A stretch of 64,000 bases of DNA from Cellulophaga omnivescoria (GTDB lineage Bacteria; Bacteroidota; Bacteroidia; Flavobacteriales; Flavobacteriaceae). The DNA is taken from positions 62,001-126,000 of the forward strand of contig NZ_MDDP01000050.1 in assembly GCF_001999725.1 (NCBI RefSeq), read 5' to 3'. Both the position numbers and the translations under genes were made by a program. The notes beneath the pieces were generated by a model that worked only from the letters and a program-made list of their open reading frames with translations, was not told the DNA's origin and made no database searches. This document shows positions 35,910 to 40,362 of this stretch, piece after piece (the stretch's first letter is position 1; the number at the start of each line of letters is the position of its first letter).

Positions 35910-36096
35910 ACTACTGTTTTTTAGATTTTTATAACATAAAAAATCAAAAATATTGTTTACCTTTATTCTTCAATTTTTTTACAATTTTAATTTATTAAAT
36001 ATGAGAGCCTACTTTATGGTAAGTTTTAAAAAAGATGTATAAAAAGTAGTGGCTTTTTTCCCCACAATTTAGTTATTACTTTTTAGCATCTTTTAT

Positions 36097-36846
36097 TTAA
36101 ATACTCATTTTATCTTTAAAAATATAAGATTGTCTTCTAGACACCTCAACTTCTTCACCTGTGTTCATAGTTAGTTTAAGCTTACCATTAAACCAAGGAA
36201 CAACATTAGCTATATAATTTACATTTATAATTTGCTGTCTGTTTACTCTAAAAAAGTTGTGATCTGGTAATTTCTCTTCTATTTGGTTTAAGGACTTGTA
36301 AAGCATTGGTTTTTCACCTTTAAAATATACACGAGTATAATTGCCTACAATTTCAAATAAAGAAATATCTCCTATTTTTACCAACCAACATTTGTCGCCA
36401 TCTTTTATAAAAATCTGACTACTTTCTGTTAGCTTCTCTTTAGCCTCAGTAGAAACGTTTTCCTCCTTACTCTCTGCTGTAGCGCCTTCTAACTGTACTT
36501 TAACTTTTTCTATAGCCTTTGCAAAACGTTTTGCATTAATAGGTTTTAAAATATAATCTAAAGCATTATACTCAAAAGACTTTATGGCGTATTCATCAAA
36601 AGCGGTAGTAAATACTGTTATAGGCACATTGTCCAACATTTCTAAAAGCTCAAACCCATCTTTTTCTGGCATATTTATATCCAAAAATAGCAAGTCTGGT
36701 TGTGCTTCATTAATTAGTTGGTATCCTGCATCTACATTCTCTGCTTCACCAACAATTTCAATATCGCCGTGGTTTTTTATCAATTCTTTTAGCTCATTTC
36801 TGGCTAACCTAGAGTCTTCTACAATAACTGCTTTAATCATACTCAT
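36097..36846 (-). CDS. LytTR-type response regulator
   Basis: A 249-residue transcription factor. Receiver domain residues 3-120 with acidic pocket E10/D11, phospho-acceptor D56 (LLFLDINMPEKDG), and DYILKPI with the conserved lysine. A charged linker (about 125-145) leads to a LytTR DNA-binding domain (about 146-247: FIKDGDKCWLVKIGDISLFE, NYTRVYFKG, FFRVNRQQIINVNYI, VSRRQSYIFKDKM). Start overlaps the stop of the sensor kinase gene by ATGA. Likely targets: the operators at 38357-38386 and 38630-38659. Confidence 0.93.
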   Translation of the reverse strand: MSMIKAVIVEDSRLARNELKELIKNHGDIEIVGEAENVDAGYQLINEAQPDLLFLDINMPEKDGFELLEMLDNVPITVFTTAFDEYAIKSFEYNALDYILKPINAKRFAKAIEKVKVQLEGATAESKEENVSTEAKEKLTESSQIFIKDGDKCWLVKIGDISLFEIVGNYTRVYFKGEKPMLYKSLNQIEEKLPDHNFFRVNRQQIINVNYIANVVPWFNGKLKLTMNTGEEVEVSRRQSYIFKDKMSI

Positions 36847-37931
36847 ACCATTGGTATTTTTATATTTGCTACTACCTCATCATTTACTTCTTCTAAAGAA
36901 AACTCTGCCAAGTTTCCGTATAACAACCGTAGACGTTGTTTTATATTTTTAAGTCCTAACTGTGTAGAGCCTTTTGCTATTTTTAATTTACCTGTATTAC
37001 GCACTATTATATGTAAATAATCTGGAGTTCTGTTTGTTATTAGTGTAATTGTACCACCTTTAATTAAGTTTGCAATACCGTGTTTTGCTGCATTTTCTAC
37101 CAACAATTGTATAATCATTGGTGGTATAGATACCGAAAGTGAGTTAGGGTCTACTTCTTTAACAAATTCTAATCTATCTTCAAACTGAATTTTAGATAAG
37201 GCAATATAGTTTTCTACCATATCCACTTCTTCTTCCAAAGCTATAGAATTAACATCATTTTTAATTAAAGAATACCTAAGCATTTCAGACAATTTAGTTA
37301 GCATTTCTCTAGACTTACTAACATCTTCTAACATTAAACCTCTAATATTGTTTAAGCTATTAAACATAAAGTGAGGATTAATTTGTCCTTTTAAGGAGTT
37401 TAATTGAGACTCCTTTAAACTTCCTTCTAACTTAAATTGCTTTAACGTAATATTTTTATTGTAATCGTAGGCTTTTATGACCAATACAATAAAAATCCAT
37501 ATCACAAACATAGCCGAGAAAAATGGTATGTTTGTTAAACGCATAAACCAGTTTATAGTATCTGTTAAGTTTTTATCTGTTTGGAAATTAGAAATATCCT
37601 GAACCACATCTAGCATTGGCCATAAAATTAAAGAGTAAACTATTTGTACTCCAATAAAAAGCAATACCAAACTAACAACATTTCTCTTTTTAAGATTACC
37701 AAATGTTATGTGTTTTTCTATATAATACAGCAATATAAAAGACATTGCATACGCTAGTAAGCCACAAGCAATACCCTCTGCTATTAAGTAACCTATATAA
37801 CCGTAGTATCCGTTTTGGTCTGCATATTCTAATCCGTAAGACACTTTGTCAAAAGTAAGTGTAGATAATATTAAAATTAACCACCCTATTAGGGCAAAAA
37901 CCCAGTATTTCCAGTTATTTATAAGTTTCAT
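36843..37931 (-). CDS. LytS/YpdA-type sensor histidine kinase
   Basis: A 362-residue membrane sensor. Four predicted transmembrane helices (about 10-26, 47-71, 85-107, 137-153), then a short helical linker and a His_kinase (PF06580-type) domain with QINPHFMFNSLNN, phospho-acceptor H187. The ATPase part has QLLVENAAKHGI and a glycine-poor G box (GLKNIKQRLRLLYG). No extracellular sensory domain is seen, so the signal is probably sensed in the membrane. Translationally coupled to the LytTR regulator. Confidence 0.92.
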   Translation of the reverse strand: MKLINNWKYWVFALIGWLILILSTLTFDKVSYGLEYADQNGYYGYIGYLIAEGIACGLLAYAMSFILLYYIEKHITFGNLKKRNVVSLVLLFIGVQIVYSLILWPMLDVVQDISNFQTDKNLTDTINWFMRLTNIPFFSAMFVIWIFIVLVIKAYDYNKNITLKQFKLEGSLKESQLNSLKGQINPHFMFNSLNNIRGLMLEDVSKSREMLTKLSEMLRYSLIKNDVNSIALEEEVDMVENYIALSKIQFEDRLEFVKEVDPNSLSVSIPPMIIQLLVENAAKHGIANLIKGGTITLITNRTPDYLHIIVRNTGKLKIAKGSTQLGLKNIKQRLRLLYGNLAEFSLEEVNDEVVANIKIPMV

Positions 37932-38084
37932 TAAATTTTATTCTAATACATTAATACGCTAATAAAAGCTATTTATTTTTTGGCTTAAGCGATAATGTTT
38001 AAAATTACGACAATCAATAATTCTGCTAGTAGTATCATAATGTTTTTTTTTAGATTGATGGTTAATAGTTGATTAGTTGTTTTT

Positions 38085-38219
38085 TTAAAATCCTAAATGG
38101 TACAGAAGTTTACCAAAGTTGTAACCTAATCCAAAAAGTAATACAAGAGCAAAAGTGCTGATTAAAATACCGTAAGCAATTGCATTTACTTTTTGGGTTT
38201 GGGTTGTTGGTTTCTGCAT
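38085..38219 (-). CDS. 44-residue membrane protein (A), predicted LytTR target
   Basis: A short gene starting at ATG 38217-38219 and ending TAA 38085-38087. The protein starts MQKPTTQTQKVNAIAYG, has one transmembrane helix (about residues 12-32), and ends GYNFGKLLYHLGF. Same length and layout as the second small gene at 38411-38545, with a similar GYxxG motif near residue 32. Preceded by its own LytTR operator and -7 box. Function unknown; a sensor partner, pore or stress peptide are all possible. Confidence 0.78.
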   Translation of the reverse strand: MQKPTTQTQKVNAIAYGILISTFALVLLFGLGYNFGKLLYHLGF

Positions 38220-38261
38220 AACTGTTAGTTTTTAAAAATGATGATTTTGATTGATGAACTA

Positions 38262-38316
38262 TTTATTAATGAACTGTTGTTGATTGATTGATGATTTGTT
38301 TTTTGATTGATGATTC
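38262..38316 (-). repeat. Short direct repeats in the leader of small gene A
   Basis: The minus strand carries at least four imperfect copies of TCATCAATCAA within 55 bases, between the -7 box and the start of the 44-residue gene. Could influence mRNA stability or translation; it may also be simple sequence drift. Confidence 0.5.
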
Positions 38317-38323
38317 AAAAATA
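38316..38323 (-). promoter_or_regulatory. -7 box of small gene A
   Basis: Minus strand TATTTTTG matches TAnnTTTG. No TTTG/TTG appears at the -33 position, which fits an activator-dependent promoter. The LytTR operator ends 33 bases upstream. Confidence 0.7.
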
Positions 38324-38356
38324 AAATAGTTTAAAGGTCTTTTTAGGTAATTTATG

Positions 38357-38386
38357 ATGAGCGGTAGTATTTAAAACCTAAACGGT
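38357..38386 (-). promoter_or_regulatory. LytTR operator A (direct repeat)
   Basis: Minus strand ACCGTTTAG (38386-38378) and ACCGCTCAT (38365-38357), start-to-start distance 21 bases (two helical turns). The first matches the LytTR consensus [TA][AC][CA]GTTN[AG][TG] fully, the second has one mismatch. Confidence 0.78.
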
Positions 38387-38410
38387 AATACACGCTAACA
38401 CCTTGGTTTA

Positions 38411-38545
38411 TTATACAAATAACTGTACAATAGCACCGCCTAATTTGTAGCCTACGTGGTATACTGGCACTATTGCTATAATGCTACATATTAATAAGGC
38501 TTTAATTTGTTCTGCTTTTTTGATGATTGCTATTCTATTTTTCAT
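38411..38545 (-). CDS. 44-residue membrane protein (B), predicted LytTR target
   Basis: Starts at ATG 38543-38545 (MKNRIAIIKKAEQIKALL) and ends TAA 38411-38413. One transmembrane helix (about residues 16-30), then YHVGYKLGGAIVQLFV. Identical length to small protein A and a comparable GYxxG motif, so the two are probably distant paralogues. It has its own LytTR operator and -7 box in the same geometry. Confidence 0.78.
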   Translation of the reverse strand: MKNRIAIIKKAEQIKALLICSIIAIVPVYHVGYKLGGAIVQLFV

Positions 38546-38588
38546 AATACAAAAATTTAAGGTTATTATTAGTTGTTTAATTATGATG

Positions 38589-38596
38589 TAAAGGTA
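38589..38596 (-). promoter_or_regulatory. -7 box of small gene B
   Basis: Minus strand TACCTTTA matches seven of eight positions of TAnnTTTG. The leader is about 40 bases. Its distance to the LytTR operator (33 bases) is exactly that of small gene A. Confidence 0.65.
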
Positions 38597-38629
38597 TAGC
38601 AGCTTATCCCTAAAAAAATCCGTTTTATG

Positions 38630-38659
38630 ACAAACGGTAATTTAAGATTAGCGAACGGT
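38630..38659 (-). promoter_or_regulatory. LytTR operator B (direct repeat)
   Basis: Minus strand ACCGTTCGC (38659-38651) and ACCGTTTGT (38638-38630), start-to-start 21 bases. The second matches the LytTR consensus fully and the first at eight of nine positions. Confidence 0.8.
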
Positions 38660-38734
38660 AATTTTGAATAATTGAATTGAAATTGCTGTATTTACAGCAC
38701 ATAACTACCTAGTTTGCAACAAACAAACTAATAG

Positions 38735-39259
38735 TTATTTTACCTTAGGAGGGTATTTACTTAGCGCTTTTTCTACTATTTTTAATAGTTTTAGCTCTTT
38801 AGCATCGGGAGTTTGGTTTTCTTTATAACCACTTGTACTTACAGCTTGCCATACAAGCGCATCTCTTTGTACATCTATAAAATCAAAAGTAATTTGACGT
38901 TCTAATTGTGCACCTCCAATAGGTAAACCTACAGATAAGCCACCGCCAATATTGTTGCCACCACCACCTAAACCAACACCAACAGAGTTGTTTGGTGCTC
39001 CTTTATATATTTGTGCCGTAATATTAATATAAAGTTCTGGCTCTTCTGCCAACTTAAAACCTTTGGTGCGCATTACATCTTCTACTGCATTTAATAAACG
39101 TTTGGTGTCTAAATCATTTAAACCCGTGTTCATATCCATATAAAAACCATAAGTGGTGTATGCTGTAAAATCTAAATCCTTATCATAATCATAATTTACA
39201 CGTACAGCATTACAAGAAACTAGCAGTATAATTAACAGTAGAGATATATAATTTTTCAT
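38735..39259 (-). CDS. DUF4136 lipoprotein
   Basis: A 174-residue lipoprotein using the ATG at 39257-39259, which gives MKNYISLLLIILLVSC with lipid cysteine 16; the frame opens 23 codons earlier without a plausible signal. The DUF4136 pattern is clear: VNYDYDKDLDFTAYTTYGF, then LLNAVEDVMRTKGF, a glycine-rich segment GVGLGGGGNNIGGG, and DALVWQAVSTSGY. Outer-membrane or periplasmic; function unknown. Confidence 0.88.
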   Translation of the reverse strand: MKNYISLLLIILLVSCNAVRVNYDYDKDLDFTAYTTYGFYMDMNTGLNDLDTKRLLNAVEDVMRTKGFKLAEEPELYINITAQIYKGAPNNSVGVGLGGGGNNIGGGLSVGLPIGGAQLERQITFDFIDVQRDALVWQAVSTSGYKENQTPDAKELKLLKIVEKALSKYPPKVK

Positions 39260-39360
39260 TGGTATATTATTAATAGTCTTATTAATTATACGGTACAAAT
39301 AAGACGTATGGCCTTTTAAAGTTATCAAAAAGATTTAATAACACCCTAAAATATAACTTA

Positions 39361-40362
39361 TTAATTGTTTAGCTGTTGCCACAATTTATCTTTTAACTCT
39401 TGTAATCCTTGCTGTGCAACAGAAGAAATAAACATATAAGTAGCACCGTCTAAATCTTTGTCTAATTCTGCACTCATTTCAGCAATAAGCTCATCATCTA
39501 ACATATCACTTTTAGAAATTACAACAAAGCGCTCTTTATCTATTAGCTCTGGGTTGTACCTCTTAAGTTCATCTAACAGTATTCTATATTCCTTTCCAAT
39601 ATCTTTACTATCTGCCGGAATTAAAAATAACAATGTAGCATTACGTTCTATATGTCTTAAAAAATAATGACCAAGACCTTTACCTTCTGCGGCACCTTCA
39701 ATAATACCAGGAATATCTGCCATTACAAAACTCTGAAAGTCTCTGTATTTTACAATTCCTAAGTTAGGTTTTAGCGTGGTAAATTCATAATCTGCAATTT
39801 TTGGTTTTGCAGAGGTTAGCACAGATAGCAATGTAGACTTACCTGCATTAGGAAAACCAACTAAACCTACATCTGCCAAAACTTTTAGCTCTAAGGTAAT
39901 TTGCATTTCTTCGCCAGGTAAACCAGGTTGTGCGTACCTTGGTGTTTGGTTGGTACTGCTTTTAAAGTGCCAGTTACCACGGCCTCCTAAACCACCTTTT
40001 AGTAGTATAACCTCTTCTCCGTGTTCTGTAACCTCTAGTACAATTTCGTTAGTTTCTGTATCTCTAACAACTGTACCTAGTGGCACATCCATAAACACAT
40101 CTTCACCATCTGCACCAGTACTACGGCCTTTACTACCGTGTTCCCCGTGCCCAGCTTTAAAATGCCTTTGTACCTTATAATTTAATAAGGTCCATAAGTT
40201 TTTATTGCCACGTAAAATAATATGACCGCCACGGCCACCATCACCACCATCTGGACCTCCTTTGGTAATATACTTTTCTCTATGCAAATGCACAGAGCCT
40301 TTACCTCCGTTACCAGAAGAAACCGTCATCTTTACATAGTCTACAAAATTACCTTCGGTCAT
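39361..40362 (-). CDS. obg: Obg-family GTPase
   Basis: Essential GTPase in late 50S ribosome assembly and stress signalling, 333 residues. Glycine-rich OBG fold (residues 1-160: [27 protein letters not shown]), then G1 [10 protein letters not shown]3 [17 protein letters not shown]4 ISKSD. The C-terminal extension of some Obg proteins is absent, as is normal in Bacteroidota. Forty-one bases after the hpt-adk fusion, same strand. Confidence 0.95.

Follow-up and report, generated by a model that had tools for sequence, protein, structure and literature searches.

Candidate LytTR operators, small membrane-protein genes and a kinase-linked micropeptide at a LytS/LytTR-type locus of Cellulophaga omnivescoria

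In a 64,000-nucleotide stretch of the Cellulophaga omnivescoria genome (hereafter the window) we examined a locus that is very probably a LytS/LytTR two-component operon under its own control, with a very small regulon whose membrane peptides would tune the kinase. Reading along the minus strand, obg (39361-40362) and a DUF4136 gene come first, followed by operator A with small gene A and operator B with small gene B; a 17-codon open reading frame, a sensor kinase and a LytTR regulator complete the series. The kinase (36843..37931, minus strand; 362 residues) is of the LytS type, with a His_kinase domain (PF06580, E 1.6e-25), four transmembrane helices predicted by hydropathy and, by the same measure, no large external domain. 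The response regulator (36097..36846, minus strand), which is the likely operator binder, carries a LytTR domain (PF04397, E 1.8e-24; 86.2 bits against a cut-off of 22.6) and a Response_reg domain (PF00072, E 7.3e-21; 74.9 bits against a cut-off of 30.2), and was 75-81% identical to eight aligned relatives. Rfam gave no match in the region 36000-39400.

The operator type, the logic of autoregulation and the geometry are known from other phyla. Judging by titles or the beginnings of abstracts, we found nothing in the openly licensed literature on what a LytTR regulator binds in flavobacteria, and that literature yielded no description of this regulon or of its small proteins. The operator, the promoter geometry and the small regulon can all be read from the sequence, and are testable at once.

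Operators and promoter geometry

Operator A (38630..38659, minus strand) reads ACCGTTCGC-N12-ACCGTTTGT and operator B (38357..38386, minus strand) reads ACCGTTTAG-N12-ACCGCTCAT, each followed by CATAA. Re-reading the sequence bore out the original prediction that both are 30-base direct repeats with a 21-base period, and that the same 33-base gap separates each from a -7-type box. This box lies at +63 from the operator start in both cases, as TACCTTTA for operator A (38589..38596, minus strand; the last base is A, not G) and as TATTTTTG for operator B (38316..38323, minus strand). The claimed fit to the LytTR consensus held without mismatch for ACCGTTTAG and ACCGTTTGT and fell short by one position in each of the other two half-sites. 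Weak TT at +40/+41, in the region of the -33 element, was kept in the conserved set of sites and is absent from the promoter of operator B.

A further claim was that such agreement at two promoters is unlikely to arise by chance. For the bare repeat pair this failed: ACCGTT-N15-ACCGTT with up to one mismatch had 28 matches in the window genome against 43 for a reversed control, and without mismatches it had 31 matches in 18 genomes of the genus against 23 for the control. As a pattern with little or no enrichment was unconvincing, we rejected it as evidence and rebuilt the case on an extended motif. Orthologous loci supplied this longer motif, in which the left half-site reads HCCGTTYR and the right one TACCGYTNRYCATAW, and with it the claim stood, since a 35-base operator pattern allowing up to one mismatch matched 67 times in the 18 Cellulophaga genomes and not once in the reversed control. 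Operator A matches this 35-base genus pattern with no mismatches and has syntenic copies in genomes G002, G003, G006 and G015. By their coordinates, 59 of the 67 sites lie at the kinase-LytTR locus, and the other 8 lie behind nqrF and before ankyrin-repeat genes (nqrF was assigned by TIGR01941 in the window genome and by reading-frame likeness at the other nqrF loci). Within the window genome, a 33-base motif allowing up to three mismatches gave 4 matches against 6 in the reversed control. The two window sites and one on another contig (G000:C10:37699) had 0 or 1 mismatch; the fourth had three and was taken for chance, so that the motif points to three credible operator sites. The third site (L110 1999-3083), which the original prediction had missed, lies between nqrF and two ankyrin-repeat genes whose N-termini are signal-like.

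We also collected loci by the regulator protein alone, using the best 80 of 495 relatives (which are thus near relatives and not a census) and dropping L169, with only 135 bases upstream. An operator with up to two mismatches lay upstream in 73 of these 79 loci. Five of the remaining six had a site with three mismatches plus the box, which brings the total to 78 of 79, and this relaxed rule had no control matches in 1184 kb; L165 had no recognisable site even at three mismatches. Across the 79 loci there were 115 sites on the coding strand in 602 kb of upstream sequence, one on the opposite strand, and none on either strand in 1164 kb downstream. Among the best 80 of 495, the locus titles include Cellulophaga, Maribacter, Zobellia, Flagellimonas, Allomuricauda/Muricauda, Croceitalea, Croceivirga, Poritiphilus and Lentiprolixibacter; the operators are conserved at kinase-LytTR loci across genera. 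Searching with the operator alone and no mismatches found it in 14 of 397 genomes of the family, against 2 for the control. All 14 have an orthologous kinase, and 13 have the regulator, whole or cut by the end of the stretch; for the other one, G196, the regulator was seen in L155, a record whose contig has the same length.

The distance between operator and box proved to be just as regular. TAnnTTT occurred exactly at +63 from the operator start in 47 of the 49 sites of a first set, defined by up to two mismatches in the two ACCGTT and by AT at +31/+32 (23 of the sites are non-redundant, and site L107:5515 was left out of the count). For the other genera we excluded the eight Cellulophaga-titled loci, and in the 93 sites of the 71 loci not so titled TAnnTT was at +63 in 88 and TAnnTTT in 59, the second most frequent box offset among these 93 sites scoring 10. 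By the rule used, a box at +63 was absent from 2 of the 49 and 5 of the 93 sites, and an exact operator site in G470 (L139) had no -7 box. The Flavobacterium -7 box is placed at -12 to -5 in sections of two publications (PMC9723704, PMC6847099), and on this numbering the half-sites begin at about -75 and -54. Rows in Table 3 of a paper on LytTR Regulatory Systems give 9-12-9, 10, -35, 17 and -10, or 9+12+9+10+6+17 = 63, and for one member, HdrR, sections of the same paper describe binding and activation as demonstrated (PMC6193735). The distance to the Bacteroidota -7 box is thus the distance to the -10 element in distant LytTR promoters, which suggests a shared activation geometry, and one that would extend across different sigma factors.

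When we asked which recognised gene comes next within 900 bases of the 115 sites, this was a kinase at 52, an S9 peptidase at 26, a short open reading frame with a GxxxG-like motif at 16, an ankyrin gene at 7 and a 117-residue membrane protein at 7, while at 7 sites the next recognised gene lay beyond 900 bases. This count ignored micropeptides as genes and tested families on representatives, and a few of the 16 GxxxG-like frames look like chance frames. In many loci the S9 peptidase gene sits behind the same operator between the DUF4136 and kinase genes (e.g., L133 1320-3836). A protein of about 119 residues with a C-terminal hydrophobic stretch also recurs at the locus (L133 912-1272; L095 1093-1456, oriented), and its L133 copy had no Pfam match. 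The ankyrin genes occur as near-identical tandem copies, each with its own operator, and their copy number varies among Cellulophaga genomes (L146, L147, L149, L100).

Small genes and a micropeptide ahead of the kinase

The two small open reading frames, which the original prediction had called hidden genes, are conserved coding genes, as synonymous change far exceeds nonsynonymous change across five genomes. Small gene A (38411..38545, minus strand) encodes 44 residues with one transmembrane helix predicted by hydropathy at about residues 11-29, and has a synonymous rate of 0.264 against a nonsynonymous rate of 0.048 (10 pairs, 5 genomes). Small gene B (38085..38219, minus strand) likewise encodes 44 residues, with one helix predicted in the same way at about residues 13-31 and a GYNFGK motif, and its rates are 0.349 and 0.074. 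A relative of gene A stands behind an operator in another genus (L132). Neither gene had a Pfam or NCBIfam match at E up to 0.05, and gene B had no match among plasmid records. In one of the paired kinases a stretch looks like the GYxxGK motif of the small proteins; mimicry of the kinase transmembrane part was considered and rejected, a profile of 16 small proteins reaching a best E of only 0.21 against kinases. The same profile reached proteins of about 93-100 residues between operator and kinase.

Between gene B and the kinase lies a micropeptide gene (37985..38038, minus strand) that the original prediction had overlooked. Its product is a hydrophobic peptide of 17 residues, MILLAELLIVVILNIIA, normally too short for gene finders to pick up and below the length accepted by the Pfam and NCBIfam tools. 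We first spotted this gene in a genome without A and B. Each of the 79 testable loci (from the best 80 of 495, less L169) has a hydrophobic peptide of 17-20 residues ahead of the kinase, and the locus titles carry at least 9 genus names; the peptide starts with ATG in 78 of the loci and with GTG in L220. The micropeptide rule, which was formulated after examples had been seen, was satisfied in 78 of 79 loci against 4 of 79 on the reverse strand and none in shuffled sequence (one shuffle per locus). A more general test for small membrane open reading frames upstream of the kinase was discarded as too loose because it found 35 of 79 on the reverse strand, against 66 of 79 loci. In loci selected by the operator the micropeptide was present in 10 of 10 (the genomes are partly the same as those of the 79), and 17 kinase loci from the window, the genus and G035 had one micropeptide each. 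The gene is directly behind the operator in 68 of the 79 loci, starting 88-117 bases after an operator with its box; in nine of the other 11 another small open reading frame comes ahead of it, and for L154 and L165 none was listed.

The consensus of the micropeptide is approximately MIALAKLIISLLVSIIL. At position 6, 73 of 78 sequences have K, 3 (including that of the window) have E and 2 have R, and positions 10 and 14 are often polar, which would give the helix a polar stripe. The peptide is otherwise almost wholly hydrophobic, with 65 distinct sequences among 78 and conservative changes between them. From 75 distinct sequences we selected 123 pairs by identity, and their differences at the first, second and third codon positions numbered 305, 51 and 679, which indicates that the micropeptide is coding, and the ratio of nonsynonymous to synonymous change was 0.18. 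Upstream of its start, A is nearly fixed at -12 (97%) and -11 (95%), positions that fall inside the A-rich zone from -14 to -11 described, in part of a published account, for flavobacterial starts.

We also looked at whether the micropeptide covaries specifically with the membrane part of the kinase, and saw no specific signal: over 78 loci the partial correlation with the membrane part was 0.35 when the catalytic part was controlled for (a value that none of 500 permutations attained), and that with the catalytic part, controlled the other way round, was 0.36.

Proposed mechanism and competing readings

The families of the two proteins suggest that the membrane-embedded LytS-type kinase phosphorylates the adjacent LytTR regulator, which would then bind the 30-base direct repeat. 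With the second half-site at 21 bases and the -7 box at 63, both multiples of two helical turns, all of these elements would lie on one face of the DNA, and the bound regulator would bring in RNA polymerase at a promoter whose -33 element is poor. Operator A would turn on small gene A, and operator B would turn on gene B, the micropeptide and, by read-through, the kinase and regulator. No terminator was visible by eye in the sequence of the read-through region, and read-through into the kinase and regulator would amount to positive autoregulation. The third site, elsewhere in the genome, precedes an ankyrin-repeat gene behind nqrF. Within the membrane, the short transmembrane products would most likely provide feedback by acting on the kinase or on what surrounds it; this is the weakest step, and neither the profile comparison nor the covariation gave a specific signal for action on the kinase.

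A narrower proposal, which we put forward tentatively and at rather less than an even chance, is that the peptide of 17-20 residues serves the LytS-type kinase as a dedicated partner or ligand, forming an intramembrane signal element that its own system switches on and that is possibly a Bacteroidota counterpart of the intercellular comCDE signal. Were the micropeptide to act on the kinase, it would rank with the smallest signalling proteins known, and as a dedicated partner it would fall far below the length of known kinase regulators.

Alternatively, the small genes may be effectors of a response to membrane stress or ion-motive force that make no contact with the kinase. This is rather unlikely in our estimation, and yet it agrees with several features of the regulon: one target lies behind nqrF, the S9 peptidase and ankyrin proteins among the other targets look exported from their N-termini, and hydropathy gives the kinase no large external domain. 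Against it, the micropeptide accompanies the kinase in every testable locus and did not turn up in a scan of six nqrF-linked stretches (L108-L111, L142, L151), a distribution that suggests a signalling job.

A quite improbable reading is autoinduction, with the micropeptide (or A or B) leaving the cell and signalling to the kinase in a density-dependent loop. In the comC-comD-comE order an operator is followed by a small peptide gene, a kinase and a LytTR regulator, and the same succession appears here, with the micropeptide directly behind the operator in most loci and varying between species (the 65 distinct forms among 78). However, 17-20 residues leave no room for a double-glycine leader, and we noticed no exporter in the loci that we read. 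The peptide itself consists almost entirely of hydrophobic residues, with the conservative pattern of change given above, and the kinase is of the PF06580 type, which we take to be a different family from the comCDE or quorum-sensing class.

The preferred reading assigns the operators to the adjacent regulator, and this part of the original prediction is supported by the domains, by the synteny in 73 of 79 loci and by co-presence in the genus. Sixteen of 18 Cellulophaga genomes have the regulator, each with 2-9 sites, and the two without it have 0 (G007) and 1 (G009). G007 keeps obg and the DUF4136 gene, with another gene between them, and lacks the kinase-LytTR operon; the operator is absent genome-wide, and its 11 regulator matches at E up to 1e-10 include no ortholog. 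We consider it very unlikely that a different LytTR protein binds the operators, with the adjacent regulator a chance neighbour. The window genome does encode 18 LytTR proteins, and G009 keeps one site, behind nqrF, with no regulator ortholog (best match E 6e-35, 32% identity). That assembly is fragmented, its obg contig stopping about 340 bases past the DUF4136 gene, and the site may reflect either an assembly gap or an orphan site. On the other side are the position of the sites upstream of the adjacent regulator at 73 of the 79 loci, or 78 once weaker sites are counted, the lack of both site and ortholog in G007 despite its 11 matches, and the sites of the window genome itself, which are two beside the operon and one on contig C10, where no LytTR gene is listed.

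That the repeats are chance or the debris of duplicated promoters we give practically no credence, for the poor enrichment of the bare pattern and the near-identical tandem duplication of some copies (23 non-redundant of 49 sites) are outweighed decisively by the 67 against 0 of the extended pattern and by a motif kept across genera with its box at a fixed distance.

Comparison with known systems

The comCDE system shares with this locus a peptide gene, a kinase and a LytTR regulator behind an operator, a likeness of gene order and operator, and differs from it in that no leader fits the 17-20 residues here and that we noticed no exporter in the loci read. A different kind of precedent is MgrB, a membrane protein of 47 residues that belongs to the PhoQ/PhoP regulon and acts as an inhibitor of the kinase PhoQ, according to part of one account (PMC8404706). 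It is, as the micropeptide, A and B would be from the operators ahead of them, a short transmembrane protein from the kinase's own regulon; the micropeptide is shorter, at only 17-20 residues, and the likeness to MgrB is one of gene context and, for A and B, of hydropathy.

HdrRM and BrsRM, the LytTR Regulatory Systems, have autoregulatory direct repeats of the same geometry and membrane proteins in the operon, in the portion of the source consulted, where LRS-like operons are noted for Bacteroides thetaiotaomicron and B. ovatus as well (PMC6193735). The HdrRM type is defined by a LytTR regulator with a transmembrane inhibitor and is distinct from two-component systems; the present locus falls outside it, having a histidine kinase and a regulator with a receiver domain, and its small proteins precede the kinase.

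The closest counterparts of the operators are those of the AgrA, ComE and SilA kind, in which, as here, a pair of 9-10-base direct repeats separated by 11-12 bases precedes a promoter; in sil, as stated in part of one report, inserting or deleting a single base between the repeats eliminated activity (PMC2766830). The present operators differ in facing a Bacteroidota -7 box, TAnnTTT(A/G), instead of a -10 element, and in a right half-site extended to TACCGTTNRYCATAW. With a response regulator bearing a LytTR domain and repeats about 21 bases apart at a fixed distance from the promoter, the locus has the features of a LytTR two-component regulon.
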